From Xanthomonas sp. (GTDB lineage: Bacteria; Pseudomonadota; Gammaproteobacteria; Xanthomonadales; Xanthomonadaceae), in NCBI RefSeq assembly GCF_017163755.1, contig NZ_JAFIWC010000008.1, positions 1 through 64,000 of the forward strand: DNA of 64,000 bases. Reading direction: 5' to 3'. Shown piece after piece: positions 27,001 through 63,901 of this stretch (the first letter of the stretch is position 1; each line of letters opens with the position of its first letter). The notes beneath the pieces are model-generated. The model was not told where the DNA came from and did no database searches. It worked only from the letters and a program-made list of their open reading frames with translations. A program made the position numbers and the translations under genes.

Positions 27001-27363
27001 TTACAGCGGCATGTTCATCACGTCCTGGTACGCCTGGACGAGTCGGTTGCGGACTTCCACGGTGGCGCGGAACGCCACCTGGGACTGTTGCGCGGCGAGC
27101 ATGACCTTGGCCAGATCGGCGTTGGGGTCGCCGAGCTCGAAGGCCTTGGCGAGGTTGCCGGACTTCTGCTGGGTCTCGTTGACGCCGCTGAGCGCGCTGC
27201 GCAGGGTCTCGCTGAAGTTGGGGGCCTGGGTGCCCTGGGTTCCGGTCAGGCCCTCGATCGCGTTGCTGCGCGCGGCGTCGCCGACCTGGGCCGGCGCCGT
27301 CTGGCTGACCTGGCTCTGGTAGGTGCGGATCTGCGACAGGATTGAACTGATGGAATCGCTCAT
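27001..27363 (-). CDS. fliE: Flagellar hook-basal body protein FliE
   Basis: Adaptor between MS ring and rod; 120 residues. The C-terminal half is typical (FSETLRSALSGVNETQQKS, VMLAAQQSQVAFRATVEVRNRLVQAYQDVMNMPL). ATG at 27363. A sigma54 element lies 40 bases upstream, so it heads fliEFGHIJK. Confidence 0.96.
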   Translation of the reverse strand: MSDSISSILSQIRTYQSQVSQTAPAQVGDAARSNAIEGLTGTQGTQAPNFSETLRSALSGVNETQQKSGNLAKAFELGDPNADLAKVMLAAQQSQVAFRATVEVRNRLVQAYQDVMNMPL

Positions 27364-27653: not shown

Positions 27654-30600
27654 TCAGTCCGGCAGCCAGGCGCTGCGCCAGGCCTGCAGGTGCGCGCCCT
27701 GCAGCATCCAGTCGCGGCGGACCGCCTCGCGCAGCGCATCGCCGGCGGCGGCGCGGCCCGGCGCGTCGGCCAGGTGCATGCGGATCGCCTGGATCCAGTC
27801 GCGGTAGCGGTTCTTGACCCGGGTCACCGGCAGCGCGCCGGCATAGCAGCGCAGGTCGCTGGCGACCACCGGGTAGCCGCAGGCGCCGTACTCGAGCAGG
27901 CGCAGGTTGCTCTTGCACTCGTTGAACAGGTTCTGCTCCAGCGGCGCCAGCGCCAGGTCCAGGTCCAGCGCGGCGAGCGCGCGCGGGTAGCGGGCCAGCT
28001 CGACGCCGGCATGGACCTCGTGCACGTAGGGACGCAGCTTGTCCGGGCACAGGCCGAAGAACACCCAGGTGACCTCGTCGGCCAGGTCGCGCACCACGTC
28101 GGCCAGCAGTTCCAGATCGCCGGTGTGGCTGGAGCCGCCGGCCCAGCCGACCCGCGGCTTGGCGCCGGCGTTGCGCCGCGACGGCGGCAGCGCGCCCCAC
28201 CACTGCGGGCCGAGCCGGTTCTCGACCACGCGGATGTCGGCGTGGTAGCCGGCATAGGCCTCGGCCAGCGCCGCGGTCGAGACCACGAACCGGTCCATGT
28301 ACGCCAGCGCCTTGCGCACCGAGCGCGCGATGTCCTTGGGCATGTGTTCGCGGTGCACGCTCTTGGGCGGCAGCTTGGGCAGGAAATCGTCCAGCTCGAA
28401 GACCTTGAACGCGCGCGAATGCCGGTGCATGCGCTGCATCAGCCGCAGCGCGTCGTCGCCGACCCGCCGCAGCACCACCGCGTCCGGGGCGAAGCGGTGC
28501 AGTTCCACCGTGTCCAGCAGCCTGGCGTGGTACGCGCCGTCGATCAGGCCGGCATCGCGCAGCGCCAGGAACGGCTGGATCACCCGGTAGTGGCCGCTGC
28601 CGAACGCGTCGTCCGGATGCGCCAGCACCACCGGCAACGGGCGCCCGGGCAGCGGCCGCCACGAGAACTCCGATTCGTCCAGCCTGAAGCCGCCGGCACG
28701 GTCCAGGCGCAGGTTCGGGTTGTAGGCCGGATCGTGCGCCAGCTGCGGCAGCCAGCGCTCGAACAGGCGTTCGTGCACCGCGTCGGGCGCGCGCTCGGCG
28801 GTTTCGCCGCGCAGCAGCAGCGCGTGCGGGGTCCACACGGTCAGGTAGCCGAGGACGCCCGCGCGCAGGCACAGGTCGATGTCCGCGCCCTGCTGCGGGA
28901 ACGTCTCGGCGTCGAAGCCGCCCAGTTCGGCGAACAAGGCGCGGCGCAGCAACAGGCAGGCGTCGGACACCGCGCTGTAGTTCTGGTCCACCTGCAACCG
29001 GCCCATGTAGCCCGGCGCGGTCATCGCCTCGCCGACGAACGCATGGCCGCCGCCTTCGAGCAGGCCCGGCAGCAGCCCGGCATGGGTGATGGCGCCGTCG
29101 CCGGACACGGTGCGCGCGCCGACCACGCCCACTTCCGGGCGTTGGCCGTGGTTGAGCAGCGCGTCCAGCCACTGCGCCTGCACGACCGCGGTGTCGGCGC
29201 GCAGGAACAGCAGGTAGTCGCCTTCGGCCTGCGCGGCGCCGAGATTGCAGGCCTGGGCATGGCCCAGCGGCTGCTCGGCGCGGATCACCCGGATCCGCCC
29301 GGCGGCCAGCCCGGCGACCGCGTGCAGCCACTGCCGGGTATCGGCGCCGGCGCTGGCGTTGTCGACCAGCAGCACCTCGTAGTGGGGGTGGGCGGTCTTC
29401 TCCAGCAGGCCGACCAGGCAGCGCTGCAGCCGCGCCAGGTCGTCGTGCGCCACCAGCACGATCGACACGCTGGGGCGCTGCCCGTGCGCATAGTCGATGC
29501 GGTACAGGCCGGGCTGGATCGCCGCCACCAGCGCGTCGGGGTAGCCGCGCTGCTGCAGGTGCTGCTGGATCGCGCGCATCTGCGCCTGCGGGTCGTCGCG
29601 CAGCGTGGCATCGCAGGTCAGCAGCGGCTCGGGCAGATGGCCCAGGCCGGCCAGGCCGCCGTGCTGGATCAGCTGCAGGATCAGGGCCAGTTCCAGCGCG
29701 CCGGGATGGTCGGCGGAAAAGCCGCCGGCCGCGAGCACCGCGTCGCGGCGGAACACCCAGTGCCGCGCCATCGCCGCCGGGTTGCTCAGCAGCAGGTCCA
29801 GGTTGACGTCCGGGCGGAACACCGCGCCCAGGCCGCCGTCGCCGCCGCGCTGCCACTCGTCGGCGTAGAGCGCGCGCAGCGGCGGTTGCGCCTGCCGCAG
29901 CTCGAGCAGCAGCCGCAGCAGGCCGCTGGCGGCGAATTCGGTGCCGGCGTCGACGCGCACCAGCCAGTCCACGTCCCATGCGCCGATCGCCGCGTTCAGC
30001 GCGTCGGCCGGATAGGCCGGGTCGAACGCGACGCTGCCCAGCTCGCCGCTGCCGATCGCCGCGCCCGGCGGCACCGCCGCGCCGAGCAGCCATACCGACA
30101 GGTTGGCGTACAGCGCGCCGGGCAGCGCCAGGCTGGCCAGCGTGCGCTGCAGCGCGGCGGCGTCGCCGTCGCGCGGCGCCGACACCAGCACGCCCAGGCG
30201 CGGGCCGGGGCCGGCCTGGCGCAGGTGCGCGTCGAGCAGGGCCTGCTGCGCCGGCAGCAGCGTGCGCCGCGCCTGCCAGTCGCGCAGCTGGCGCTGCGCC
30301 AGGTCGCGCGCCAGCGCGGCGCGCAGCGCCTGCAGCAGATCGACCCGGGCGAAGCCGGCGCTGCCGTCCAGCGGCGCCACCGCCACCTCGCCGGCGCTGC
30401 CGTCGTCGCGGCTCCAGCCCAGGTCGCGGATCGCGCGGCGCAGCGCCTCGTGCCCGGGCGTGCCGATGCCGGGCCGGTCGCGGCCGAGCTGGCTGAACTG
30501 CTCGCGCGAGATGCGGAAATCCAGCAGCGGCCGCGCCAGCATCGCCAGCGGCCCGTCGCGCAGCAGCTTCACGTACAGCGCCAGGTCGGCGACCCAGGTG

Positions 30601-31199
30601 ATGCGCACGCCGTTGAGCGTGGCCAGTCCGTCGCCGAGCGCCAGCAGCGGCGCGCGCCGGCACAGCACCGCGCTGGGTTCGCCGATGAAGTTGACCGTGT
30701 GCTCGGCGAGAAACGCGGTCAGCTCGCGGCCGTCGATCAGCACGTCGTGCGCGAACGGGAAGCTGGTGCTCAGTTCGTCCGGCAACGGCGCGCCGTCCGC
30801 ATCGACCAGGCGCCGCCGCGCCGCCGCCAGCGCGGCGTTGGGCGTCGCGCGCAGCGCCGCCAGCAGCGCGGCGATGCAGTCCGGATGCAGCACGTCGTCG
30901 TCGTGCAGGAACTTGATGTACTCGCCCGAGGCCAGCGCCACGCCGCGGGCGGTGCTGCGCACCTCCCACAGCCGGGTCGGGTTGCGCCGGTACAGCACCG
31001 GGAAGTCGACCTCGGCGGCGAAGGCCTCGACCATCGCCTGGATCTGGCCGTCGTGCGAATCGTCGCAGACCACCAGCTCCAGCGGGCGGTGGGTCTGCGC
31101 GCGCACGCTGTGCAGCGCCTGCGCCAGGTAGCGCGCCTTGTAGGCCGGCATCACCACGCTGACCAGCGGCGCTGCGGGGGAGGAGGGGGCGTGGCTCAT
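27654..31199 (-). CDS. Multidomain glycosyltransferase (GT2, GT2-like, GT2, GT-B modules)
   Basis: Large cytoplasmic glycosyltransferase of 1181 residues, probably building or attaching the flagellin glycan. An N-terminal GT-A/GT2 domain (VSVVMPAYKARYLAQAL, with HDDDV as metal-binding motif) comes first. A second, degenerate GT2-like segment (LGVLVSAPRDGDAAALQRTL, with VDAGT) follows, then a third GT2 domain (VSIVLVAHDDLARLQRCL, LVDNASAGADT, FLRADTAVV). A C-terminal GT-B-like domain ends it (VGWAGGSSHTGDLELL, NLFNECKSNLRLLEYGACGYPVVAS). ATG at 31199 overlaps the upstream stop as ATGA. Acceptor and sugars cannot be told from sequence. Confidence 0.85.
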   Translation of the reverse strand: MSHAPSSPAAPLVSVVMPAYKARYLAQALHSVRAQTHRPLELVVCDDSHDGQIQAMVEAFAAEVDFPVLYRRNPTRLWEVRSTARGVALASGEYIKFLHDDDVLHPDCIAALLAALRATPNAALAAARRRLVDADGAPLPDELSTSFPFAHDVLIDGRELTAFLAEHTVNFIGEPSAVLCRRAPLLALGDGLATLNGVRITWVADLALYVKLLRDGPLAMLARPLLDFRISREQFSQLGRDRPGIGTPGHEALRRAIRDLGWSRDDGSAGEVAVAPLDGSAGFARVDLLQALRAALARDLAQRQLRDWQARRTLLPAQQALLDAHLRQAGPGPRLGVLVSAPRDGDAAALQRTLASLALPGALYANLSVWLLGAAVPPGAAIGSGELGSVAFDPAYPADALNAAIGAWDVDWLVRVDAGTEFAASGLLRLLLELRQAQPPLRALYADEWQRGGDGGLGAVFRPDVNLDLLLSNPAAMARHWVFRRDAVLAAGGFSADHPGALELALILQLIQHGGLAGLGHLPEPLLTCDATLRDDPQAQMRAIQQHLQQRGYPDALVAAIQPGLYRIDYAHGQRPSVSIVLVAHDDLARLQRCLVGLLEKTAHPHYEVLLVDNASAGADTRQWLHAVAGLAAGRIRVIRAEQPLGHAQACNLGAAQAEGDYLLFLRADTAVVQAQWLDALLNHGQRPEVGVVGARTVSGDGAITHAGLLPGLLEGGGHAFVGEAMTAPGYMGRLQVDQNYSAVSDACLLLRRALFAELGGFDAETFPQQGADIDLCLRAGVLGYLTVWTPHALLLRGETAERAPDAVHERLFERWLPQLAHDPAYNPNLRLDRAGGFRLDESEFSWRPLPGRPLPVVLAHPDDAFGSGHYRVIQPFLALRDAGLIDGAYHARLLDTVELHRFAPDAVVLRRVGDDALRLMQRMHRHSRAFKVFELDDFLPKLPPKSVHREHMPKDIARSVRKALAYMDRFVVSTAALAEAYAGYHADIRVVENRLGPQWWGALPPSRRNAGAKPRVGWAGGSSHTGDLELLADVVRDLADEVTWVFFGLCPDKLRPYVHEVHAGVELARYPRALAALDLDLALAPLEQNLFNECKSNLRLLEYGACGYPVVASDLRCYAGALPVTRVKNRYRDWIQAIRMHLADAPGRAAAGDALREAVRRDWMLQGAHLQAWRSAWLPD

Positions 31200-32527
31200 C
31201 GGTGGGCTCGTTGCGCGATCGCCGCGCGCAGCCGCTGTACCAGCCGCTGCGAGTTGTGCGCGTCGCGATGGTTGAAGAACATCCGCTGCGCGGCGCGGTA
31301 GCGCGCGTCCGGCGCCTGTCCGCGCTGCTTCAGCGCCGCGTCCAGCGCCTCCAACAGCGTGTCGAAGTCGGTCGCCACCGGCCCGGGAAAGGCCAGCGCC
31401 ATGTCGTACAGCAGGCCGTTCTGGCGCGTGCGGTAATGCTCCAGGTCCCAGGCGAAGCTCAGCACCGGCAGGTCCAGGTACATCGCGTCGATGTATACCG
31501 ACGAGTAGTCGGTCAGCACCACCGCCGCCTCGCGCAGCAGCGGCGCGATCTCCGGGAAACGCTCGTGCTCCAGGTCCAGCAGCACGTCGTCGTCCAGATG
31601 GCGCTGCGGGTCGAACGGCGGCGCGGCATTGCGCAGGTAGTGCCCGCGCACGCCGAGCACCGCACCGGCGGCCTGCAGCAGCTCGCGCAGCCGCGCCACT
31701 TCGCCGTCGCTGAAGGCATGGCTTGGCGTGGCGGCTACGCTAGTGTCGCGGTAGGTCGGCGCGTACAGCACCAGCGGCCGCCCGCGCCGCAGCTGCCGCA
31801 GCCGCTCGGTCTGCTCGCGCAGCGTCGCTGGCAGCGCGTCCTCGGGCATGCGCAGGAAGTCGTTGCGCGGCAGGCCGGTCACCCATACCCGGTCGGGCGG
31901 CAGCGGATGGAAGATCGCCGCCATCGCGTAGCTGTCCACGTCCGACGAGGCCACCAGCCCGGCGTAGTGGCGGCGTTCGCGGCGCCGCGCCGCGTTGCGG
32001 TCGCCGTGCCGGCGCTGCTCGGGATTGGCCAGCGCGAACAGCCGCTTGAGCGGGATGCCGTGCCACAGGTTGACCACCACGCGGCGGCGCAGGCTCGCGC
32101 GCGGCGCGTCGTAGCTGCCATCGCGCCAATGCAGCGACAGGTCCATGGCCACCGAATTGGTCAGCAGCAGCACGCCGCAGCGCGCCAGCGCGAGCAGGCC
32201 GGCGATGCTGCCCAGTTCGAGCACGCGCGTATTGCACGCCGCATCCAGGCGCAACGGCGGCGCCGCGCCGCGCACGAACACCAGCTTGTAAATGCCGGGG
32301 TCGGCGCCGACCTGCTCGAACACCGCGCGCGCGTTCTCCACGAACTGCGTCGGTTTCAGCGGGTGGGCGAAGAACGCCCAGTGGTCGTCGCGCTTGGGCA
32401 GCAGCCGGTCCAGGCACCACCACAGCGCCAGCACCGCGCGGCCCAGCCGGACGCTGCCGATCCCGCGCCGCCACCATGGCGCGTCGCACGATGCCGGCAT
32501 CGCCGCGGACGCCTGCCGCTGGGTCAT
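31196..32527 (-). CDS. CDP-glycerol glycerophosphotransferase family protein (TagF-like)
   Basis: 443 residues resembling the catalytic part of TagF/TagB, which move glycerol phosphate from CDP-glycerol onto a glycan. Hallmarks are NLWHGIPLK near residue 151, LYAPTYRDT near 255 and LTDYSSVYIDAMYLDLPVL near 338. It has no signal peptide; a hydrophobic patch near the N-terminus (RAVLALWWCLDRLL) suggests membrane contact. ATG at 32527 overlaps the aminotransferase stop as ATGA. A TagD-like cytidylyltransferase in the same island could supply CDP-glycerol. Confidence 0.8.
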   Translation of the reverse strand: MTQRQASAAMPASCDAPWWRRGIGSVRLGRAVLALWWCLDRLLPKRDDHWAFFAHPLKPTQFVENARAVFEQVGADPGIYKLVFVRGAAPPLRLDAACNTRVLELGSIAGLLALARCGVLLLTNSVAMDLSLHWRDGSYDAPRASLRRRVVVNLWHGIPLKRLFALANPEQRRHGDRNAARRRERRHYAGLVASSDVDSYAMAAIFHPLPPDRVWVTGLPRNDFLRMPEDALPATLREQTERLRQLRRGRPLVLYAPTYRDTSVAATPSHAFSDGEVARLRELLQAAGAVLGVRGHYLRNAAPPFDPQRHLDDDVLLDLEHERFPEIAPLLREAAVVLTDYSSVYIDAMYLDLPVLSFAWDLEHYRTRQNGLLYDMALAFPGPVATDFDTLLEALDAALKQRGQAPDARYRAAQRMFFNHRDAHNSQRLVQRLRAAIAQRAHR

Positions 32528-33651
32528 GCCGCGCGGCGCCGCGCCGGGGCCAGCAGCACCTCGCAGATCCGCTCCACGTCGTCTTCGCTCAGGTCCGGGT
32601 AGATCGGCAGGCACAGCACCCGGCGCGCGGCGGCGTGCGCGACCGGCAGGTTGGACGGCAGCGCCGACGGCAGCCCGCGGTACATCGGGAACTCGCTGAT
32701 CAGCGGGAAGAAGTAGCGCCGCACCAGGATGTCGTGGTCGCGCATGCGCTGGAACAGCTCGTCGCGCGACAGCGGGTACTCGTCCTGGACCATGATCGGG
32801 AAGTAGGCGTTGTTCGGGCTGATGTGGTCGCTGGCGCGCAGGCAGTGCAGCCCCGGCACGCCCGCCAGCCGCTGCCGGTACAGCGCGTCGATCTGCGCGC
32901 GGCGCGCCAGCGCCTGGTCGATGTGCTGGAGCTGGAGCAGGCCGAACGCGGCGCAGACCTCGTTCATCTTGCCGTTGATGCCGGGGGCGACCACGGTGAC
33001 CTCGTCGACGAAGCCGAAGTTCTTCAGGTGGTTGATGCGCTGGCGGGTGCGCGCGTCCGGGCAGATGATCGCGCCGCCCTCGAAGGTGTTGAACACCTTG
33101 GTGGCGTGGAAGCTGAGCACCGACAGGTCGCCGTGGCGCAGCACGCTGCCGCCGGCGTCGCGTACCGAGAACGCGTGCGCCGCGTCGTAGATCACCCGCA
33201 GGTTGTAGGTGTCGGCGATGCGCTGGATCTCGGCCACGTCGCACGGGGTGCCGTAGCAGTGCACCGGCATGATCGCGGTGGTCTTGGGGGTGATCGCCGC
33301 CTCGATCCGGGCCGGATCCAGGTTGAGGGTGACCGGGTCGATGTCGACGAACACCGGCTTGATCCCGTTCCACAGCAGCGAATGCGCGGTGGCCACGAAC
33401 GAATACGGCGTGGTGATGACCTCGCCGGTGACGCGCAGCGCCTGCAGCGAGGTCAACAGCGCCAGCGTGCCGTTGGCGAACAGGGCGATGTGCTCCACGC
33501 CCAGATAGTCGCACAGCGCCTTCTCCAGCGCCTGGTGCATGCTGCCGCCGTTGGTCAGGATGCGGCTGTCCCAGATCCGCTGCAGGTACGGGATGAACTC
33601 CTCCAGCGGAGGCAGCAGCGGGCTGGTGACGGGAATGGGCTTGGCTTTCAT
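32524..33651 (-). CDS. DegT/DnrJ/EryC1-type sugar aminotransferase
   Basis: PLP enzyme of the family that aminates nucleotide-linked 4-keto (or 3-keto) deoxysugars; 375 residues. The PLP lysine is Lys185 in SFHATKVFNTFEGG, with ANGTLAL in the cofactor-binding loop and YDAAHAF carrying the aspartate. It is close in style to VioA, which makes the dTDP-sugar found on Pseudomonas flagellin glycans, but the exact substrate is inferred. ATG at 33651; a sigma54 element lies 55 bases upstream. It heads the run aminotransferase, TagF-like, multidomain glycosyltransferase. Confidence 0.85.
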   Translation of the reverse strand: MKAKPIPVTSPLLPPLEEFIPYLQRIWDSRILTNGGSMHQALEKALCDYLGVEHIALFANGTLALLTSLQALRVTGEVITTPYSFVATAHSLLWNGIKPVFVDIDPVTLNLDPARIEAAITPKTTAIMPVHCYGTPCDVAEIQRIADTYNLRVIYDAAHAFSVRDAGGSVLRHGDLSVLSFHATKVFNTFEGGAIICPDARTRQRINHLKNFGFVDEVTVVAPGINGKMNEVCAAFGLLQLQHIDQALARRAQIDALYRQRLAGVPGLHCLRASDHISPNNAYFPIMVQDEYPLSRDELFQRMRDHDILVRRYFFPLISEFPMYRGLPSALPSNLPVAHAAARRVLCLPIYPDLSEDDVERICEVLLAPARRRAA

Positions 33652-33705
33652 CCGGACGGCTCGGCGGCAGGCGACGGCGCCGGCGCGGCACCACCCCGAT
33701 GATGA

Positions 33706-33721
33706 TGCAAAACCCATGCCG
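33706..33721 (-). promoter_or_regulatory. Candidate sigma54 promoter of the aminotransferase operon
   Basis: The minus strand reads CGGCATGGGTTTTGCA, 16 bases with the -24 GG and -12 GC elements, 55 bases before the aminotransferase ATG. It links glycan genes to RpoN-dependent flagellar control. Confidence 0.75.
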
Positions 33722-33742
33722 CCGGGCGGCGGGCGGCGGCCG

Positions 33743-35050
33743 TCACCCGCGCAGGTCCAGCAGTTGTTCGATGGCGTCCAGGTCGAACACCGGCAGGCCG
33801 TGGACCCGGTGCACGTCGGCACGCTCGCGGAACGAATCGTCGATGAAGATCGCCGCCACGCCCGCTTCGATCGCCGCGCTCTTCGGCGAGCCGTCGCGCA
33901 GGTGCACGATCTCGGCGAACAGACCGGCGCCGATGTGGTGGCGCGCCAGCGTGGCCAGCGGGTCGGCCGCGTGGCGGGTGAGCATGACCACGTCGATCCG
34001 CTGCGCGTGCCACTGGTGGAGCAGGGCGATCAGCCACGGGTTGACCCGGTCGCCGGCGATCAGCGTGTCGTCCAGGTCCAGGTACACCCGGCCGTAGCGC
34101 AGCTCGGTGCGGTAGCGGTTGCCCAACGCGCGGTCCAGGACCAGCGGCCATTGCTGGTCCAGCACCCGGAACGGCCGGCCCATGTGCGCCAGCAGCCCGA
34201 GCAGGCTGTGGTTGACCCCGCGCATCCTCGCCAGCGCCATGGACCCGGCGATCCGCGGCGCGACCTCCAGCAGCTTCGGTTCGCCGTGCCGGTCCAGCTT
34301 GAGCTGGAAGAACCAGGCGCCGCGCAGCCGCAGTTCGCCGGCGATGGCGCGGGCGATGGCCGCCACGCGCGGGTCGGCCGCGGCCGGCTCGGTACGCACG
34401 CTGATGCCGGACTTGATCCGGGCGCGGCGGCGCGCGGCGACGTGCAGCAACTGCCCCTCGGCGTCGGACAGGCAATCGACGGTGTATTCGGCGCCCGGCA
34501 GGTACTCGCTGAAAACGTAGTCGACCCCGCTTTCGCGCAGCCGACGGTGGTGCCCGGCGTCGTCGACCCGCTGCGCGCCCTGGCTGCCCTGGCCGATCGC
34601 GGGCTTGGCGAAGATCGGATACGCACAGCCGTCGCCATCGGCGTCGGCGTCGGCGTCGGCGGGCACGATGCCGAGCGGCCGCAGCCGCGCATGGGTCAGC
34701 CGCTTGTCGCGGCAGATCGCGGCGATGTCCGGATCCGGTACCGCCGCCTTGGCATGCAGGCGCCCGCCGGCGGCCGCGAGCACGGGAATGACGTCGTCGT
34801 GCGCCGGCAGCACGATGTCGATGCCCCATTCGTCGATCAGCGCGTTGAGCTGGTCGATGAATCCAGGCGCGCGCGCATGCGCGCCGATCTGGCGGTAGCG
34901 CGCGTAGACGAACTCGCCATGGTCCTCCGCCGACGATGCGCCGTACAGGCACACCTCCTTGGCGTGGCGCAGGGCGGCGTGGATCTCCAGGCCGATCTCC
35001 GAGCCGCAGGGAAACACCAGCACGTTCATGCGCATCCGTTCGCCGGTCAT
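33743..35050 (-). CDS. ATP-grasp ligase fused to a HAD hydrolase
   Basis: 435 residues with two domains. The N-terminal two-thirds is an ATP-grasp enzyme of carbamoyl-phosphate-synthase style (VLVFPCGSEIGLEIHAAL, DKRLTHARL, IFAKPAIGQGSQG, PKLLEVAPRIAGSMALARMRGVN). From about residue 315 a HAD domain follows: VYLDLDDTLIAGDRVNPW (motif I), MLTRHA (II), a lysine in GSPKSAA (III) and IFIDDSFRERADV (IV), so both appear intact. ATG at 35050 overlaps the upstream stop as ATGA; ATG at 35035 or 35029 is also possible. It may ligate an amino acid or acid group onto a glycan precursor, but its substrate is unknown. Confidence 0.8.
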   Translation of the reverse strand: MTGERMRMNVLVFPCGSEIGLEIHAALRHAKEVCLYGASSAEDHGEFVYARYRQIGAHARAPGFIDQLNALIDEWGIDIVLPAHDDVIPVLAAAGGRLHAKAAVPDPDIAAICRDKRLTHARLRPLGIVPADADADADGDGCAYPIFAKPAIGQGSQGAQRVDDAGHHRRLRESGVDYVFSEYLPGAEYTVDCLSDAEGQLLHVAARRRARIKSGISVRTEPAAADPRVAAIARAIAGELRLRGAWFFQLKLDRHGEPKLLEVAPRIAGSMALARMRGVNHSLLGLLAHMGRPFRVLDQQWPLVLDRALGNRYRTELRYGRVYLDLDDTLIAGDRVNPWLIALLHQWHAQRIDVVMLTRHAADPLATLARHHIGAGLFAEIVHLRDGSPKSAAIEAGVAAIFIDDSFRERADVHRVHGLPVFDLDAIEQLLDLRG

Positions 35051-38000
35051 GCTTGGTCGGCGGGCGCGACGATGCGCTCGAACTGGGCCAGCGCGCTGCG
35101 CGCATAGGCCTGCGCGTCCCAGGCCTGGCCGGCGGCCGGCGCCGCCAGCCAGCGGCGCATGCCCTCGAGCAGGCCCTGCGTCGAGTTGTCGACCAGCCGC
35201 TGCCGGTCGCCGGCCAGCACGCTGTGCGGACCGGGGATGTCGGTGGACAGCACCGGCGTGCCGAGGGTCAGCGCTTCCAGCAGCACGATCGCCTGGCCTT
35301 CGTACAGCGAAGGCAGCACGAACAGGTCCAGCTCGCGCATCAGCGGATACGGATTCTCCAGCGCGCCGAGCAGGCGCACCGTGTCGGACAGCCCCAGCCG
35401 CGCGATCTGCTCGAGCAGCGCCGGTTTCTCGGCGCCTTCGCCGGCGATCGCCAGCAGCGCCTGCGGGAACTGGCCGCGCAGCGCGGCGAAGGCGTCCAGC
35501 AGGCGCGCATGCCCCTTCTCCGGCGACAGCCGGCCGACGCTGCCGATCAGGACGTGGCCGCGCCGCCAGGCCAGCAGCGCTTCGGGCACGGGTGCCTGCG
35601 CATGGGCGCGGATGAAGTCCGGATCGATGCAGTTCTCGGCCACGCGGAAGCGCTGCGCATCGTAGTCCACGCAGTCGGCCAGGGTGCTGGCGTTCACCTC
35701 GTGCAGGCTCTGCGACACCGATACCAGCGCGTCGCAGTAGCGGTACTGCCGGAATACGCGCGCCAGCTGCGGGTGGCGGGTGGCCGCCTCCTGGCGCATG
35801 TCGTTGTGCAGGTAGGTCACCGCGCGCACGCCGTGCGGCCGGCCGCGCGCGAACAGGCCGGTCCAGAACGCGGTGTAGCCGGCGAAGTCGATCGCCGCGT
35901 CGATCCGCGCCGAGCCGAACTGGCGCCGGTACTCGCGCGCCAGGATCCGGTCGAGCTGGCGCTGGGCACGCTCGGCCAGGGTGTCGGGCATGCCCAGCCG
36001 CTGGTGCAGCCACTGGTCCTCGACGCTGGTCACCGGATGGCTCACCCGTCCCCAGCGCTGCACGTGCGCAGGCAGTTCGCCGTAGCGCTGCAGGCGCTGC
36101 GGGTAGCTCTCCATGCTCCAGGGATCGGCGACCACGGCGACCGAGAACTTCGCCGGGTCCAGCTGCGATACCAGCCGGTTGAACGAAGCGGTCACGCCGT
36201 TGGGATTGAAGTTGCCGGCCTGGAACAGCAGGCTGCGCTTGCCGGTCGGCGGCAGCGCCACCTCGCCGGGGACGCGGGCGTCGTCGAAGAAGAAGTCCAG
36301 GACGCGTTCGCCGGCGGCGCCGTCCTCGTGCGCGCAGTACTCCGCCAGCGCCTCCTGCAGGGCGGCGGCCGGCGCCGCGCCGGGCGCCAGCGCCTCGGTC
36401 AGCGCCGACGCCAGCGCCTCGGGCGTGCGGCTGAACCGCGCGGGCAGGGAGGCGATGTCGCGGTACAGGCCGCGTTCGCGTGCGTACTGCTCGGCGTCGG
36501 GGACGTGCAGGATCAGCGGACGCCGCGACGGCAGGTAGTCGAACAGGATCGACGAGTAGTCGGTGACCAGCACATCGACGATCGCCAGGGCCTCGGTGAT
36601 GTCCACGCCGTTCGGGAACGCGCGCGCGCCGGCCGGCAGCGGGCCGAGCTTGCGCGCCACCAAGTGGTGCGCGCTGAAGAGCAGGGCGACGCCGGGGCGC
36701 GCCATGTGCTCGATCGCCGCGGCCACCAGCGCCGTGTCGAGCGATGCGCCGCCCAGGCTGCCGCGCCAGGTCGGCGCGTACAGCACCACGCGCTCCCCGC
36801 TGGCCACGCCGAGGCGCTCGCGCAGGCGCGCGCGGTCCGCGTCGGTGGCGTTGAGCATCAGGTCGATGCGCGCGTGTCCGGTCGCGGCCACGCGCGCGGC
36901 GAACACGTCGCGCACTTGGTTCGCATGCAGCAGGGTATGCCAGGTATGGGCGTTCGGCGCGGCCAGATGGGTGACCTGCAGCAGGTTGCGCGTGCAGTTC
37001 TTGTGGTCGAACAGCGCGCCGGGGATGTCGGCGCCGAGCTTCTTCAGCGGCGTGCCGTGCCAGACGTTGAGATAGCGCTGCCGCGGCCGGCGCACGAAAT
37101 AGGGCATGAACGTGTTGTTGTTGACCAGCCAGCCGGCGGTGGCCAGATAGCGCACGTACAGTGCGCTGCCATGGCGCACGAACAGCACGTCCGGCAGCGC
37201 CGCGTACTCGGGCGGCACGCTGGCGTCGGATCTGACCGCCCATACGTGCAGCCGGCCGCTTCCGGCGAAGCGCCGGTATGCGCGGCGGAACACCGCCAGC
37301 GGATTGCAGCTGACCGAGGCGCCGTGGAAGCTCTCGTACAGGACGATGCCGTCGTCGACCTCCAGCGTGTCGAGGAATTCGGCGTAGGTCGTCTTGATGT
37401 CCTCCGGCGGCTGCGGCAGGTGCGAGAAATCGCGCCTGTACAGGCGCGTGTCCTGCAGCGCATGGCAGGCCTGGGTCAGTTCGCCCAGGCGGTACAGCAC
37501 CGCGCCGAGCCGGTAATGGTCGCAGGCGCGGTGATCGCCGCGGCGCCGCGCCGCGCCGCGGTAGGCGTCGGCCGCCTCCGCCAGCAGGCCCAGGCGCTCG
37601 CAGACGGTGCCGAGCCGGTAGTGGGTGTCGGGGTCGAGCTGGCTGCCGGCCAGTTCGGCGCGCAGCGCGTGGCGCCGCTCGTGCAGCGCCGACGGGGCTT
37701 CGTCCATCGCCAGCTGTTCGGGCTGGTCCGGCAGGCAGCGCAGCCACGCGGCGATCGCGGCGCGGGCGTCGCCGGCGCCGAACAGGCTGCTGGCCTGGCG
37801 ATAGCGCCAGTCGGCGTCCTCGCGCAACTGCAGCGCCTGCGCGTAGGCGTCGGCGGCTTCGGCATGGCGCTCCAGGCGCTCGAGCATGTAGGCCCGGCGG
37901 TAGTGCCAGTCGGCCTGGCCCGCGTCGGCCGCCAGCGCGCGGCGGTAGGCCGCCTCGGCGTCTTCCCAGCGCAACAGCATTTCCAGCGCCAAGCCGTGGG

Positions 38001-38931
38001 CGAAATGCAGCGCTGCCGGCGCCGCTGCGCCGGCTTGCCCGGCGCGCCGCGCGTAGGCGGCCTCGGCGGCGCTCCAGTCGTTCTCCTGTGCGTGCAACGC
38101 CCCCACGCCCAGCTGGGCGATCTGCGGATTGATCGCCGCCAGCCGCTCGTAGCAGCCGGCCGCGTCCTGCGCGGCGCCGCGTTGTTCGTACAGGTAGCCG
38201 AGGCGGTACAGGGTGTCCTCGCGCGCGTCGTCCAGCGCCAGCGCCTTGCGGTAGGCGTCGATCGCCTCGTCGAGCCAGTCCAGGCGTTCGCAGGCGTAGC
38301 CCAGTTCGTGGAACCAGGCGGGGTGTCGGTCGTCCAGGCGCGTGGCCTTGCGCAGCGGATCCACCGCGCGCCGCCAGCCGCCGCGCTTGGCCACGATCCG
38401 CGCCAGCAGGACCAGGTTGGCGGCGTCGTCCGGATCGAGCGCGCAGGCGCGCACGGCGATCATGTCGGCCACCTCCCACAGCTCCATGCGCGCCAGGTTG
38501 GCGGCGATGCGCGCCAGCACCTGCGGCGGCGCCTCCAGCCGCTTGAACAGGGCCAGGCTGCGGGTATTGAATTCGGTGCGCTGCGCGACCTCCAGCCGCT
38601 GGCTGGGGAGCAGGGTGGTGCTCAGGCCCAGCGCCTGGCCGTGCGCTGCGTAGTGGGCGCCGGGATCGCGCTCCAGGTCCGAATCCAGGTGCCGGATGCA
38701 ATACCACCACAGGTCGAAGCCGGCGGACGGATTGCGGAACTCGCGCCAGCCGCGCTCGCGGAAATGCGCGTAGGGCGTGGTGCCCGCCATGTCCACGTCG
38801 GGGTTGTGCAGCAGGTAGAAGTCCGCATCGAACCACGCCGGCGCCGACTGCGCGGCCACGGCGGGCCGATGCCCGGGGATCGGCAGGTCGGGGGCGGGGA
38901 CGGCCGGGTCGCTTGGCTGGCTGGAGATCAC
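35047..38931 (-). CDS. TPR, TagF-like and GT4 glycosyltransferase fusion
   Basis: 1294 residues. A short N-terminal motif (FDADFYLLHNPDVDMAG, HFRERGWREFRNPS) seen in other large glycosyltransferases comes first. About ten TPR-like repeats fill roughly residues 110-480 (for example FHELGYACERLDWLDEAIDA). A TagF-like glycerophosphotransferase follows, with NVWHGTPLKKLG near 621, LYAPTWRG near 714 and VTDYSSILFDYLP near 795. A GT4 domain ends the protein, with GSVGRLSPEKGHARLLDAF near 1135 and LPSLYEGQAIVLLEAL near 1210. The start is GTG at 38931, 12 bases after tagD. The TPRs may bind a protein acceptor such as flagellin (inference). Confidence 0.82.
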   Translation of the reverse strand: MISSQPSDPAVPAPDLPIPGHRPAVAAQSAPAWFDADFYLLHNPDVDMAGTTPYAHFRERGWREFRNPSAGFDLWWYCIRHLDSDLERDPGAHYAAHGQALGLSTTLLPSQRLEVAQRTEFNTRSLALFKRLEAPPQVLARIAANLARMELWEVADMIAVRACALDPDDAANLVLLARIVAKRGGWRRAVDPLRKATRLDDRHPAWFHELGYACERLDWLDEAIDAYRKALALDDAREDTLYRLGYLYEQRGAAQDAAGCYERLAAINPQIAQLGVGALHAQENDWSAAEAAYARRAGQAGAAAPAALHFAHGLALEMLLRWEDAEAAYRRALAADAGQADWHYRRAYMLERLERHAEAADAYAQALQLREDADWRYRQASSLFGAGDARAAIAAWLRCLPDQPEQLAMDEAPSALHERRHALRAELAGSQLDPDTHYRLGTVCERLGLLAEAADAYRGAARRRGDHRACDHYRLGAVLYRLGELTQACHALQDTRLYRRDFSHLPQPPEDIKTTYAEFLDTLEVDDGIVLYESFHGASVSCNPLAVFRRAYRRFAGSGRLHVWAVRSDASVPPEYAALPDVLFVRHGSALYVRYLATAGWLVNNNTFMPYFVRRPRQRYLNVWHGTPLKKLGADIPGALFDHKNCTRNLLQVTHLAAPNAHTWHTLLHANQVRDVFAARVAATGHARIDLMLNATDADRARLRERLGVASGERVVLYAPTWRGSLGGASLDTALVAAAIEHMARPGVALLFSAHHLVARKLGPLPAGARAFPNGVDITEALAIVDVLVTDYSSILFDYLPSRRPLILHVPDAEQYARERGLYRDIASLPARFSRTPEALASALTEALAPGAAPAAALQEALAEYCAHEDGAAGERVLDFFFDDARVPGEVALPPTGKRSLLFQAGNFNPNGVTASFNRLVSQLDPAKFSVAVVADPWSMESYPQRLQRYGELPAHVQRWGRVSHPVTSVEDQWLHQRLGMPDTLAERAQRQLDRILAREYRRQFGSARIDAAIDFAGYTAFWTGLFARGRPHGVRAVTYLHNDMRQEAATRHPQLARVFRQYRYCDALVSVSQSLHEVNASTLADCVDYDAQRFRVAENCIDPDFIRAHAQAPVPEALLAWRRGHVLIGSVGRLSPEKGHARLLDAFAALRGQFPQALLAIAGEGAEKPALLEQIARLGLSDTVRLLGALENPYPLMRELDLFVLPSLYEGQAIVLLEALTLGTPVLSTDIPGPHSVLAGDRQRLVDNSTQGLLEGMRRWLAAPAAGQAWDAQAYARSALAQFERIVAPADQA

Positions 38932-38943
38932 GTCCGCGCCTGT

Positions 38944-39375
38944 TCAGCCATGCGTGCCGGCGACTGCCAGCACCGGTGGCGGCTCGGCTCCCTGGCGGAT
39001 CAGCGACTTGAGCGAGGAACTGGAGATGTCGGCGGTGCGCGGCAGGTAGCGCACCTGGCACAGCGTGGACAGCGCATCGAAATGGCCGCTCCAGTCCGAG
39101 CCCATGACCAGCAGGTCCGCGCCGAGCCTAAGGATGTCCTCGGCCTTCTGTTCCCAGGTGTGTTCCGGGAACACGTCGTCCACGTAGCGGATCGCCCGCA
39201 GCACCACTTCGCGGTCGGCGTAGCTCTGCGTGGCGCGCTTGTGCTTCAGCGCGTTGAAGCTGTCGCTGGACAGCCCCACCACCAGGCGGTCGCCCAGCGC
39301 GCGGGCGCGGCGCAGCAGGTTGACGTGACCGACATGGAGCAGATCGAAGGTGCCGTACGTCACGACGAGTGCCAT
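38944..39375 (-). CDS. Glycerol-3-phosphate cytidylyltransferase-like protein (TagD family)
   Basis: 143 residues of the nucleotidyltransferase fold. The signature HVGH occurs in YGTFDLLHVGHVNLLRRA. The later motif TADISSSSLKS matches the ISSS-type C-terminal signature of TagD/GCT enzymes. Predicted to make CDP-glycerol from CTP and glycerol 3-phosphate, feeding the two TagF-like modules nearby; other cytidylyltransferases share the fold, so the substrate is an inference. ATG at 39375; a sigma54 element lies 42 bases upstream. Confidence 0.82.
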   Translation of the reverse strand: MALVVTYGTFDLLHVGHVNLLRRARALGDRLVVGLSSDSFNALKHKRATQSYADREVVLRAIRYVDDVFPEHTWEQKAEDILRLGADLLVMGSDWSGHFDALSTLCQVRYLPRTADISSSSLKSLIRQGAEPPPVLAVAGTHG

Positions 39376-39416: not shown

Positions 39417-39432
39417 TGCAAACGGTGTGCCG
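39417..39432 (-). promoter_or_regulatory. Candidate sigma54 promoter of the tagD-like operon
   Basis: The minus strand reads CGGCACACCGTTTGCA, 42 bases before the ATG of the cytidylyltransferase gene. It would drive cytidylyltransferase, TPR-TagF-GT4 and ATP-grasp/HAD. Confidence 0.8.
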
Positions 39433-39453: not shown

Positions 39454-40110
39454 CTATCGGGTGATGCGGATGCCGACCTGCACCCATTCGGTCTTCCACA
39501 GGTACTCGAAGTCCCGGTCGTAGGTCCGGCACCAGTCCAGCAACGCGCGATGCTCGTCGTCCTGGAAGCGGTCGCCGACCTGCATGAAGTATTCATCGAA
39601 CACGATCACCGTGCCCGGCGCGATGCGCGGCTCGAGCCCGGACAAGGCCTCCAGGGTCGAGCTGTACAGGTCCGCATCGGCGTGGATCATGGCCAGCGGC
39701 GCATCCAGCCCCTCGGCGAGCCCCGGGACCGTGTCGCGGAACCAGCCCGGCACCACCTTCACGTTCGGCGCGTCGAACGTCGGGATCTCGTCGCCGGCCA
39801 GCGAGAACGCGCCCTTCTTCCACGGCCCCATCCAGTCCTCGGGCAGGCCCTCGAAGCTGTCCAGCAGGTACAGCGTACGCTCCGGCGGAATGAGCCCGGC
39901 CAGGAACCTGGCGCAGTGTCCCTTGTAGACGCCGAGCTGGAGGTAGTCGCCCGGCAGCGTGACTTCGCCGACGCCTTCGTACAGCGAGGTCAGCTTGTAG
40001 CTGTACCAACGGTCCTCGTTGTCGGCGAACGTGCGCGTGCGCAGTTCGGGAACCCCGGGCAGCCGTTCCCGGATCTGCTGGAACTTCTCCGACTGCGTGG
40101 CACTGGCCAT
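39454..40110 (-). CDS. TylF/MycF-type class I methyltransferase
   Basis: 218 residues resembling macrocin O-methyltransferase (TylF/MycF) proteins. Visible are LPGDYLQLGVYKGHCARFLAG (SAM-binding region), LYLLDSFEGLPE, MIHADADLYSSTLEAL with the metal-binding Asp pair, and VIVFDEYF. Likely methylates a sugar of the glycan. The chosen start is ATG at 40110, 10 bases after the upstream gene, with GAGGCGG nearby; an in-frame ATG at 40131 would overlap that gene by 11 bases. Confidence 0.8.
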   Translation of the reverse strand: MASATQSEKFQQIRERLPGVPELRTRTFADNEDRWYSYKLTSLYEGVGEVTLPGDYLQLGVYKGHCARFLAGLIPPERTLYLLDSFEGLPEDWMGPWKKGAFSLAGDEIPTFDAPNVKVVPGWFRDTVPGLAEGLDAPLAMIHADADLYSSTLEALSGLEPRIAPGTVIVFDEYFMQVGDRFQDDEHRALLDWCRTYDRDFEYLWKTEWVQVGIRITR

Positions 40111-40120
40111 GCCCGCCGCC

Positions 40121-41149
40121 TCAGACCGCATGGGCCGCGCGCAGCGCGGCCAGGTGCCGGTCGTCGACGTCGATGCCGCAGAGCATCAGGTTCAACAGCG
40201 CGACCTGCAGTCCCATCGACCAAGGCGCCACGTCCGGATGATCCTTGATCGCCGGGCTTTGCACGTCGATGAAGGCGATGTCCTTGCCCCGCGACGACTG
40301 CATGGCGATGTCGCGGATGTAGGGGAACTGCGGCGACTTGTCCGAATAGATCACCACGCGTTCGGCCGGCGCGCCCTCGGCGGCCAGGTGATGGGCGAAC
40401 AGCGCCTGCTTGCTGCGCGGGAACAGCCCCTGGGTGAAGTGCGAGTCGCGGTAGCGATGCAGGTAGTAGTCGTCCGACAGGATCGGCTCGACGCAGACCA
40501 GCTTCATGCCCGAGCGCAACGAATGGAGCAGGGCGCCGGACGCGCCTTTCGATGCGCCGTACAGGACGATGTGCTGCGGCGCTATCGCAAGGTCCAGCGC
40601 GACCTTGGCGATGAGCGCGGCGACGCGCTCCTCGTTGTCCGGCTGCGCATTGGTGTTGGTGTAGAACGCGCCGACCACCCCGCCGAGGTCGGCGATGCGC
40701 AGCACGGCGGTATCGAAGGGCGTGTATTTCGCCGCCTGGTTGAGGTTCCGGGCGAAATACCGGGCGGAGAAGCCGGCCTCGTACATCTGGTCGACCTTGG
40801 AGATGCAGGAAAAGACCACCAGCAGGCGGCGCGCGACGACGTCCTGCTGCTGCTCCAGCTTGTAGCAGACGCCGTTGTATTCCCTCAGCCCGAAATCGGT
40901 TTTCTCGGCCCAGAAGCTCGGCGCGATGGACGCGTGCACGAACGAGGTGACCGCCGCGCCGTCGTTGGCGTATTTGTAGACCAGGAAGCCCTGGTCGACC
41001 AGCGACACCAGCGATTCCTTCAGCTGTGGGTCCCTTCGCGAGAGCCGGATGCAGTTGTCCTCGCCCGGGTGGCGCAGGTGCACGAACCGGGCCTGCCCGA
41101 GATCCGCGCCGGCCAGCTCGCTTGCGTCAATCTTCACCGCTCCACTCAT
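40121..41149 (-). CDS. Alpha/beta-hydrolase-like protein, possibly XcbB/CpsF- or Asp2-like
   Basis: 342 residues, not securely assigned. It contains a GxSxG nucleophile motif in LYGASKGASGALLHSL, preceded by a hydrophobic strand, and FHLVVFSCISKVDQMY-like core sequence (VVFSCISKVDQMYEAGF). The overall pattern recalls XcbB/CpsF capsule proteins and Asp2, which acetylate or process bacterial surface glycans. No signal peptide. ATG at 41149 has GAGGAC upstream; a near-perfect sigma54 element lies 107 bases upstream. It forms a two-gene unit with the methyltransferase gene. Confidence 0.6.
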   Translation of the reverse strand: MSGAVKIDASELAGADLGQARFVHLRHPGEDNCIRLSRRDPQLKESLVSLVDQGFLVYKYANDGAAVTSFVHASIAPSFWAEKTDFGLREYNGVCYKLEQQQDVVARRLLVVFSCISKVDQMYEAGFSARYFARNLNQAAKYTPFDTAVLRIADLGGVVGAFYTNTNAQPDNEERVAALIAKVALDLAIAPQHIVLYGASKGASGALLHSLRSGMKLVCVEPILSDDYYLHRYRDSHFTQGLFPRSKQALFAHHLAAEGAPAERVVIYSDKSPQFPYIRDIAMQSSRGKDIAFIDVQSPAIKDHPDVAPWSMGLQVALLNLMLCGIDVDDRHLAALRAAHAV

Positions 41150-41255: not shown

Positions 41256-41271
41256 TGCAAGCAGGATGCCA
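41256..41271 (-). promoter_or_regulatory. Candidate sigma54 promoter of the hydrolase-methyltransferase operon
   Basis: The minus strand reads TGGCATCCTGCTTGCA, close to consensus. It lies just downstream of fleQ and 107 bases before the hydrolase-like ATG. A weaker TTGCA-containing sequence lies nearer the gene at about 41171-41186. Confidence 0.8.
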
Positions 41272-41306: not shown

Positions 41307-42793
<1,487 letters not shown>

Positions 42794-42797
<4 letters not shown>

Positions 42798-63197: not shown

Positions 63198-63213
63198 CGG
63201 CACGGCGATTGCA
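63198..63213 (+). promoter_or_regulatory. Candidate sigma54 promoter of flgA
   Basis: The plus strand reads CGGCACGGCGATTGCA, 44 bases before the flgA ATG. It is divergent from the cheV sigma28 element and 33 bases from it. Confidence 0.8.
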
Positions 63214-63256
63214 TGGCCCTGGACGACCCTATCGTCTCTGCGGAGTGCCCGGCCCC

Positions 63257-63901
63257 ATGCGCCTGATCCTGATTCTGATCCTGTTGGTGGCGGCACCGGC
63301 CTGGGCGGCCGAGTTCCAGTCGGTCGAGTCGATCCGCGCCGCGGCGCTGTCCACCATCGGCGCCGACGCCGAAGCCGACGCCACCTTGGACCCGTCGCTG
63401 CGGCTGCCGCTGTGCCCGGGCCCGCTGCAGGCGCAGCCCACCGGCACCACGACGGTGGAGGTGAGCTGCCCGCGCGAGGCCGGCTGGCGCCTGTTCGTGC
63501 CGGTCAAGGTGCGCCGCTTCCAGAACGTGCTGATCCTCACCCGCGGCCTGGCCGCTGGAGAAACCGTCGGCGCGGCCGATCTCACCTCCGAGCGGCGCGA
63601 CGCGGCGCGCATCGTCGGCGCGGTGCTGACCGATCCGGCCGCGGCCGTCGGCAAGGTGGTGCGGCGCACGCTGCCCGCCGGCAATCTGTTGTCGGCCACC
63701 GATCTGGTGCCGCAGCGGCTGGTCCGGCGCGGCGACAATGTGGCGCTGGTGGCGCGCCGGGGCGGCCTGGAGGTGCGCATGGCCGGGCGCGCACTGGCCG
63801 ATGCGGGGGAGAACGAGCGGATATCCGTCGAAAACCTGTCGTCACGGCGGGTCGTTCAGGGAACGGTGTCACAAAATGGCGACGTTTTCGTGACGCGGTG
63901 A
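63257..63901 (+). CDS. flgA: P-ring assembly chaperone FlgA
   Basis: Periplasmic chaperone for FlgI; 214 residues. The signal peptide is LILILILLVAAPAWA. The C-terminal SAF-like domain includes LTRGLAAGETVGAADLTSERRD and RRTLPAGNLLSATDLV. ATG at 63257 is preceded by GGAG; an in-frame start 16 codons upstream lacks support. The first of two plus-strand genes. Confidence 0.94.
   Translation: MRLILILILLVAAPAWAAEFQSVESIRAAALSTIGADAEADATLDPSLRLPLCPGPLQAQPTGTTTVEVSCPREAGWRLFVPVKVRRFQNVLILTRGLAAGETVGAADLTSERRDAARIVGAVLTDPAAAVGKVVRRTLPAGNLLSATDLVPQRLVRRGDNVALVARRGGLEVRMAGRALADAGENERISVENLSSRRVVQGTVSQNGDVFVTR

Follow-up and report, generated by a model that had tools for sequence, protein, structure and literature searches.

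We analysed a window of 64,000 nucleotides from Xanthomonas sp. (assembly GCF_017163755.1, contig NZ_JAFIWC010000008.1, positions 1 to 64,000) and found that the interval between the flagellar genes fleQ and fliE holds a cassette of eight genes, which reaches from 27654 to about 41149 and lies entirely on the minus strand. Judged from its sequence, this is a genuine teichoic-type glycan cassette that lies among flagellar genes, has flagellar-type promoter sites and has a chemistry that is so far a prediction. On balance the cassette probably makes and attaches a glycerol-phosphate-containing flagellin glycan of one or a few glycosyl-glycerol-phosphate units. In cassette order, the genes encode an XcbB/CpsF-family protein, a TylF-family methyltransferase, a TagD-like cytidylyltransferase, a Cps3D-like fusion, an ATP-grasp enzyme with HAD motifs, a DegT aminotransferase, a stand-alone TagF-like transferase (TagF2) and a large glycosyltransferase (large GT). 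A sequence-only reading had placed a TagD-like gene, a TagF-like gene and a second TagF-like module within a fusion between fleQ and fliE, and all three proved to be open on the minus strand and to score above their Pfam cut-offs. The extent it gave (31196 to 39375) holds these genes, but the cassette is larger and their neighbours belong to it. It was also right about the TagF-like module of the fusion, but missed the relationship to Cps3D-type polymerases.

This relationship was revealed by comparison with solved structures, in which the fusion matched Cps3D (8qoy, E 3.8e-164) over residues 439-1289, plus a second stretch at 192-370 in its TPR part, so that the TPR, transferase and GT4 regions are all covered. 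The TagF domain alone scored 6.5e-79 to Cps3D versus 4.6e-25 to TagF. The fusion carries WHG at 624, HHL at 755, DYSS at 791, GRLSPEK (GR.S.EK) at 1133 and EX7E at 1211, and thus combines TPR, a WHG TagF-type transferase and an EX7E GT4 in a single chain, as in the Cps3D family. TagF2, whose relatives among solved structures are TarL (8va1) and TagF (3l7i), has WHG at 155 and DYSS at 340. Previous work identified WHG as the motif of TagF-like glycerol-phosphate polymerases, with QHG in hexose-phosphate transferases, and described Cps3D as a TPR, glycerol-3-phosphate transferase and galactosyltransferase protein that builds the poly(galactosyl-glycerol-phosphate) backbone of a capsule (PMC11666461). 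We read WHG in the window's proteins from their own sequences; when motifs were compared across loci, the pattern met another stretch first in L036 and L121, and several distant TagF matches were without it. PF05159, which we take to represent the poly-Kdo enzymes of group 2 capsule systems and to be linked to the Cps3D family, had no match in the window's genome and matched in 2 of 14 control genomes; because of this absence, we class the fusion only as a relative of capsule polymerases and not as one of them. Searches of the same genome gave one match to the TagD query and three to PF04464. The third of these is marginal (L003, G000:C75:2585-2956; 22.8 bits, cut-off 22.1), and no WHG motif was seen in its open reading frame (ORF).

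The TagD-like protein aligned to Bacillus subtilis TagD (1coz) with an E value of 3.9e-42 and without gaps over residues 2-125. HxGH, K44, K46, R55, R63, W74, D94, R113, T114 and S118, which we take to be the TagD active site, were invariant across eight aligned sequences. Glycerol is the likely substrate suggested by these features.

Next, we examined where related cassettes occur. An alignment scan with the ATP-grasp enzyme gave 168 relatives, and the best 80 were kept. Among these 80 are seven Lysobacteraceae loci with TagD and fleQ (Stenotrophomonas daejeonensis, S. acidaminiphila, two other Stenotrophomonas, Pseudoxanthomonas daejeonensis, Pseudoxanthomonas J31 and one metagenome-assembled genome) and seven more loci that hold TagD, ATP-grasp, DegT, TagF2 and large GT genes. 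The latter, from three Stutzerimonas stutzeri, three Pseudomonas and one metagenome-assembled genome, represent a second flagellar setting in which the core lies just upstream of fliC, with fliC as the next gene in six of the seven. Of all the evidence, this position beside fliC speaks most strongly for flagellin as the target. The large GT was found in 12 of the 14 loci; L114 ends before it, and L113 has none between TagF2 and fliE. In S. stutzeri V81 (L122:6945-8288), one gene of the flagellar cassette joins CTP_transf_3 cytidylyltransferase and RraA-like domains. Six cassettes were compared gene by gene (the window, G007, G028, G278, and G194 and G180, the last two found via TagD), and all six contain TagD, a TagF, ATP-grasp, DegT, TagF2 and the large GT. 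The Cps3D-like fusion is present in the window, G028 and G180, and also in S. acidaminiphila (L114).

Control by flagellar regulators is suggested by three matches to a strict sigma-54 type (-24/-12) pattern, YGGCAYN5TTGCW, within the cassette; those before the TagD-like gene and DegT occupy its two widest internal gaps. The strict pattern matched eight times in the window versus 0.36 expected from shuffles, with two further matches before fliE, and a loose pattern matched 70 times versus 30 expected. Glycan genes in a flagellar cluster together with sigma-54 type sites, here as sequence matches only, are what marks a flagellin glycosylation island. We also scanned 17 other cassette loci, one genome being included twice (L039, L112), and found a strict site before TagD in six (L036, L037, L113, L114, L117 and L119 at 123 bp) and before DegT in four (L036, L037, L038 and L117). 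One more strict site of the window lies near its edge (63198-63213, plus strand), beside the plus-strand ORF 63209-63901.

To place TagD in its family, we compared 39 rows in a tree; three genomes are represented twice by identical rows (L036/L121, L037/L115 and L039/L112). The flagellar label required two changes on this tree, and 0 of 200 bootstrap trees required only one. The Lysobacteraceae flagellar proteins (13 rows, support 100/100) joined the TagD of L041 and L042 at moderate support (91/83), and those of Pseudomonas and Stutzerimonas (7 rows) formed a separate clade (99/95). The simplest reading is that TagD was recruited twice to flagellar loci; a single gain with later losses would be a less simple alternative. 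The TagF2 tree contains one very long branch, that of the fusion domain, and was not used for origins. L041 (4398-19291, G157) and L042 (8036-13423, G213), from the same family as the window, carry TagD and TagF2 relatives beside ABC transporter genes, and L041 also has two TPR-TagF-GT4 fusions related to Cps3D; both are presumably lipopolysaccharide (LPS) loci.

Within the window's genus, FliF was found in 20 of 20 genomes, and the fleQ-fliE island was inspected in each. DegT and a related large GT accompany other genes in 18 of them, and a large GT relative was present in all 19 islands other than the window's. The only other genus island that was annotated, in part (L060), has DegT with FabH-like, SDR, Rieske and hexapeptide acyltransferase genes. 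In G007, third-position G+C was 0.70-0.73 for the middle genes versus 0.95 each for DegT and the large GT, suggesting that the middle block was exchanged. Outside the genus, 71 genomes have FliF; the fleQ side was fetched for 43 and was readable in 37, since L077, L078, L099, L100 and L106 end at contig ends and L108 is without fleQ. Among these 37, a TagD cassette was found in G028 and G278, and another version, based on an IspD-SDR fusion, in G356 and G142.

Teichoic acid synthesis has glycerol and ribitol versions. The islands of G356 (L070:9056-14016) and G142 (L081:6935-12691) lie between fleQ and fliE and hold IspD-SDR fusion, LicD and TagF-like genes, with no TagD match in either. The two fusions are 70.7% identical to each other and have what we take to be the architecture of the CDP-ribitol (CDP, cytidine diphosphate) enzymes Acs1/Bcs1. 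They scored 176.1 and 179.6 with the IspD model (cut-off 181.3) and 140.6 and 139.0 with the ribitol-5-phosphate cytidylyltransferase model (cut-off 166). Since both scores are below their cut-offs, ribitol is something that we infer only, and a ribitol-phosphate version of the same island is possible; the presence of IspD-SDR with LicD favours a polyol. A bolder proposal, which we regard as tentative, is that a Cps3D-type polymerase makes a short teichoic-like hexosyl-glycerol-phosphate chain and that relatives swap the polyol, using glycerol (TagD-like) or ribitol (IspD-SDR fusion with LicD/TagF), so that the flagellum would be serotyped by teichoic chemistry.

The remaining core genes may supply the sugar. 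The ATP-grasp enzyme has D318, D320, D321, K383 and D397 invariant in 42 aligned sequences; we read its C-terminal part as HAD from these motifs, and Pfam made no HAD call. The best solved matches of its ATP-grasp part (2pn1, 1.2e-5; the L-amino acid ligase 3vot, 2.2e-5) hint that the ATP-grasp and DegT pair makes an amino sugar to which an amino acid is joined through an amide. The best solved chain for DegT was 2po3, named a 4-dehydrase, and the genome contains RmlB (510.5 bits, cut-off 365.1). DegT lies within 150 bp of the ATP-grasp gene in 36 of the 80 loci, within 2 kb in 59 and within 5 kb in 72; no DegT was seen in seven, five of which are on contigs shorter than 13 kb. The combination of ATP-grasp/HAD and DegT (loci L111-L190) spans many phyla, from Bacillus to Methanobrevibacter, far beyond flagella. 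We considered viosamine as the DegT product and dropped it, as its basis was only the partly annotated L060 island and vioA in Pseudomonas syringae (PMC3927599). Our literature search on ATP-grasp enzymes with Qui4N found nothing on such a pathway. The large GT is likely a flagellin or core-glycan transferase.

Taking the cassette as the source of a glycerol-phosphate flagellin glycan, we infer substrates, order of steps, target and chain length as follows. RpoN and FleQ would switch the cassette on together with the flagellar genes. The TagD-like enzyme would convert glycerol 3-phosphate and cytidine triphosphate to CDP-glycerol, while DegT would turn the 4-keto sugar from the genome's RmlB into a 4-amino-6-deoxy sugar nucleotide, to whose amino group the ATP-grasp enzyme may join an amino acid or similar acid. 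The large GT would place the core sugar or sugars onto flagellin in the cytoplasm, TagF2 would add the first glycerol phosphate, and the Cps3D-like fusion would add one or a few hexosyl-glycerol-phosphate units, using both of its active sites. Finishing or regulation of the chain might fall to the methyltransferase and the XcbB/CpsF-family protein.

Several observations weigh against this proposal. The TagD-like protein scored 154.5 bits with TIGR01518, the glycerol-3-phosphate cytidylyltransferase equivalog, below the cut-off of 165.4; we therefore call it TagD-like only, and its substrate may have shifted. All six flagellar TagD-like proteins that were scored, including this one, fell under the cut-off (144.7-158.8), and proteins of the L041 transporter locus (186.7), of Bacillus (231.6), of Mesobacillus (197.2) and of a member of the Chitinophagaceae (192.9) exceeded it. 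The TagD and TagF cassette occurs in only 2 of the 20 genus genomes (the window and G007), a plain TagF stands in place of the fusion in three of the six compared cassettes, and a single TagF was found in L118, L120, L122, L123 and L124 with the hidden Markov model used. The strict sigma-54 pattern was chosen after inspection of loose-pattern matches, and it was absent before TagD in L038, L039, L049, L112, L126, L116, L118, L120, L122, L123 and L124. Flagellin is exported through a narrow channel, into which it is unlikely to fit with a long polymer attached. Cps3D is processive (PMC11666461).

The last points raise a question within the proposal itself, namely whether the fusion is a one-shot transferase and the glycan receives one glycerol phosphate rather than an oligomer. 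We consider this possible but doubtful: the replacement of the fusion by a plain TagF and the narrow channel into which flagellin must fit speak for it, and the retention of TPR and GT4 regions with intact motifs speaks against it. It is unlikely that the phosphate bears an amino acid or amino alcohol in place of glycerol. Here a shifted TagD-like enzyme would use a phospho-amino compound that the ATP-grasp/HAD enzyme helps to make, the TylF-like enzyme would methylate it and the TagF domains would move it to the sugar, as proposed for CDP-threonine in Clostridioides difficile type A and Pseudomonas aeruginosa b-type flagellin. Similar parts (methyltransferase, HAD motifs, cytidylyltransferase, TagF-like transferase and glycosyltransferase) do lie together in a flagellar locus (PMC10714395, PMC11833859), and the low TIGR01518 scores would fit, as would two positions in the 39-row comparison: at position 93, 16 of 20 flagellar rows have S and 15 of 19 others have D, and at position 119, 19 of 20 flagellar rows have S and 13 of 19 others have T. 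However, CD0242 was likened to GDP-mannose pyrophosphorylase and phosphocholine cytidylyltransferase, not to TagD (PMC10714395), whereas the window's protein aligns to TagD without gaps. Furthermore, ATP-grasp and DegT often occur without TagD (no match in the retrieved stretch of 57 of the 80 loci), TylF was not matched in four of the compared cassettes (G007, G278, G194 and G180), and two related islands carry the polyol-type IspD-SDR enzyme. That the enzymes serve a surface polysaccharide (LPS or capsule) and are merely located in the flagellar cluster is quite improbable, because, although relatives of TagD and TagF2 (and in L041 of Cps3D) lie beside transporter genes in L041 and L042 and Cps3D and XcbB are capsule proteins, the same core recurs in two different flagellar settings, sigma-54 type sites lie in the cassette, the genome has no PF05159 match, and 18 of 19 other genus genomes have different genes in the same slot, again together with DegT and a related large GT.

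The general idea of a teichoic-type flagellin glycan has already been published. In variable region 1 of the flag-2 loci of Enterobacterales, TagD, TagB and LtaS were reported from 235, 65 and 30 strains, respectively, and teichoic-type polymers were suggested as part of the flagellin glycan (PMC6993521, 2020). The window's cassette shares with these TagD in a Gram-negative flagellar locus, but belongs to another flagellar system, and a Cps3D-type enzyme is not named in the available part of that paper. In two E. coli regions (L203:8992-9396 and L204:8992-9396) we observed a TagD-like gene directly after fliJ of a second flagellar locus, with flagellar genes around it. Its protein is 48% identical to the window's and scores 114.5 bits, and, unlike in the window's cassette, the neighbouring glycosyltransferase in both regions has a GT2 domain and no PF04464. 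Of 5426 E. coli genomes, 1200 gave partial DNA matches to the window's TagD-like gene, and in no case did the match cover more than 80% of the query. Flagellin islands are also reported with tagD in Geobacillus (PMC5109656) and with ribitol genes in enterobacteria (PMC4875605). In C. difficile and P. aeruginosa PAO1, the sugar on flagellin is likewise the site of action of a TagF-like phosphotransferase, a cytidylyltransferase and a methyltransferase, but there the moiety is a methylated threonine (phospho-threonine), known from ions at m/z 130.086 or 214.048, and the cytidylyltransferase is described as another family (PMC10714395, PMC11833859). The enzyme of the cassette is a PF01467 protein nearest to TagD, and the CD0242/PA1090 type was compared by description only. 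Teichoic acid synthesis (TagD, TagB/TagF, TarI/TarJ/TarL) has the same CDP-polyol and TagF-family chemistry, but the cassette lies in a flagellar locus under probable flagellar control, and no wall polymer is known from this bacterium. Cps3D and Cps7D of Actinobacillus pleuropneumoniae are likewise single chains that combine TPR, glycerol-phosphate transferase and GT4 and carry WHG and EX7E (PMC11666461, PMC5974469), but the window's fusion belongs to a flagellar locus, and PF05159 had no match in its genome. In the open-access literature searched, we found no paper that places an enzyme of the Cps3D type among flagellar genes, and PMC5974469 does not contain the string flagell.

The sequence-only reading had taken the union of CDP-glycerol enzymes under flagellar control to be the unusual part. 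This no longer holds, since TagD with TagB in Gram-negative flagellar loci (PMC6993521) and TagF-like enzymes on flagellin glycans (PMC10714395, PMC11833859) were known. Its proposal that a flagellar glycan carries a polyol phosphate and is made under flagellar control gained indirect support from the sigma-54 type sites, the two flagellar settings, WHG in both TagF domains and the ribitol-type alleles, with glycerol as the likely polyol. As far as we searched, three things are new: an enzyme of the Cps3D type in this setting, what were probably two recruitments of TagD to flagellar loci, and two related islands with a CDP-ribitol-type enzyme.

The features of the cassette and its borders are listed below. 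In cassette order the intergenic gaps are -11, 78, 12, 14, 82, -4 and -4 bp, followed by 290 bp to fliE; the ATP-grasp/DegT gap of 82 bp becomes 91 bp if DegT starts at its ATG (33651). The flagellar flanks contain fliE, fliF, fliG, fliH, fliI and fliK on one side and fleQ, response regulators, rpoN, a PilZ gene, fliS, fliD and fliC on the other. Gene starts and part of the gene calls come from simple ORF scripts. The start of the XcbB/CpsF-family gene was set at an in-frame ATG, the ORF extending to 41272, and no Pfam family was called for its protein. We take CsxB to be the newer name of XcbB. CsxB is among the transition-transferase candidates (PMC11666461). For TagF2, the mechanical ORF 31196-33694 was rejected as too long, its upper part overlapping the DegT gene in another frame; the Pfam domain lies within 31196-32527, which begins with ATG.

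Features of the fleQ-fliE cassette and its borders
Feature	Position	Strand	Evidence
fleQ, flagellar sigma-54 activator (flank)	41307..42797	-	PF06490, PF00158
Sigma-54 type (-24/-12) site TGGCATCCTGCTTGCA, between fleQ and first cassette gene	41256..41271	-	strict pattern match
XcbB/CpsF-family capsular polysaccharide biosynthesis protein, first cassette gene	40121..41149	-	NF033892, 255.5 bits (cut-off 125)
TylF-family methyltransferase	39454..40131	-	PF05711, 71.5 bits (cut-off 23)
Sigma-54 type site before TagD-like gene, in 78-bp gap after TylF	39417..39432	-	strict pattern match
TagD-like cytidylyltransferase, predicted CDP-glycerol maker	38944..39375	-	PF01467, 72.4 bits (cut-off 21)
TPR - TagF-like (glycerol-phosphate transferase) - GT4 fusion, 1294 amino acids, Cps3D relative	35047..38931	-	PF04464, 229.5 bits; 8qoy, E 3.8e-164
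ATP-grasp enzyme, HAD motifs in C-terminal part	33743..35032	-	PF15632, 71.7 bits (cut-off 29.1)
Sigma-54 type site before DegT, in gap after ATP-grasp gene	33706..33721	-	strict pattern match
DegT/DnrJ/EryC1/StrS-type aminotransferase	32524..33651	-	PF01041, 338.6 bits
Stand-alone TagF-like transferase (TagF2)	31196..32527	-	PF04464, 151.2 bits (cut-off 22.1)
Large glycosyltransferase, two GT2 stretches	27654..31199	-	PF00535, 148.5 bits, two stretches
fliE (flank)	27001..27363	-	PF02049

If the proposed glycan is real, a Gram-negative flagellar filament would bear a type of polymer found in Gram-positive walls and some Gram-negative capsules. What gene content had suggested for flag-2 systems (PMC6993521) would then become testable by mass spectrometry and single deletions. 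A charged filament surface of this kind could change how plants, phages and immune systems recognise the bacterium.

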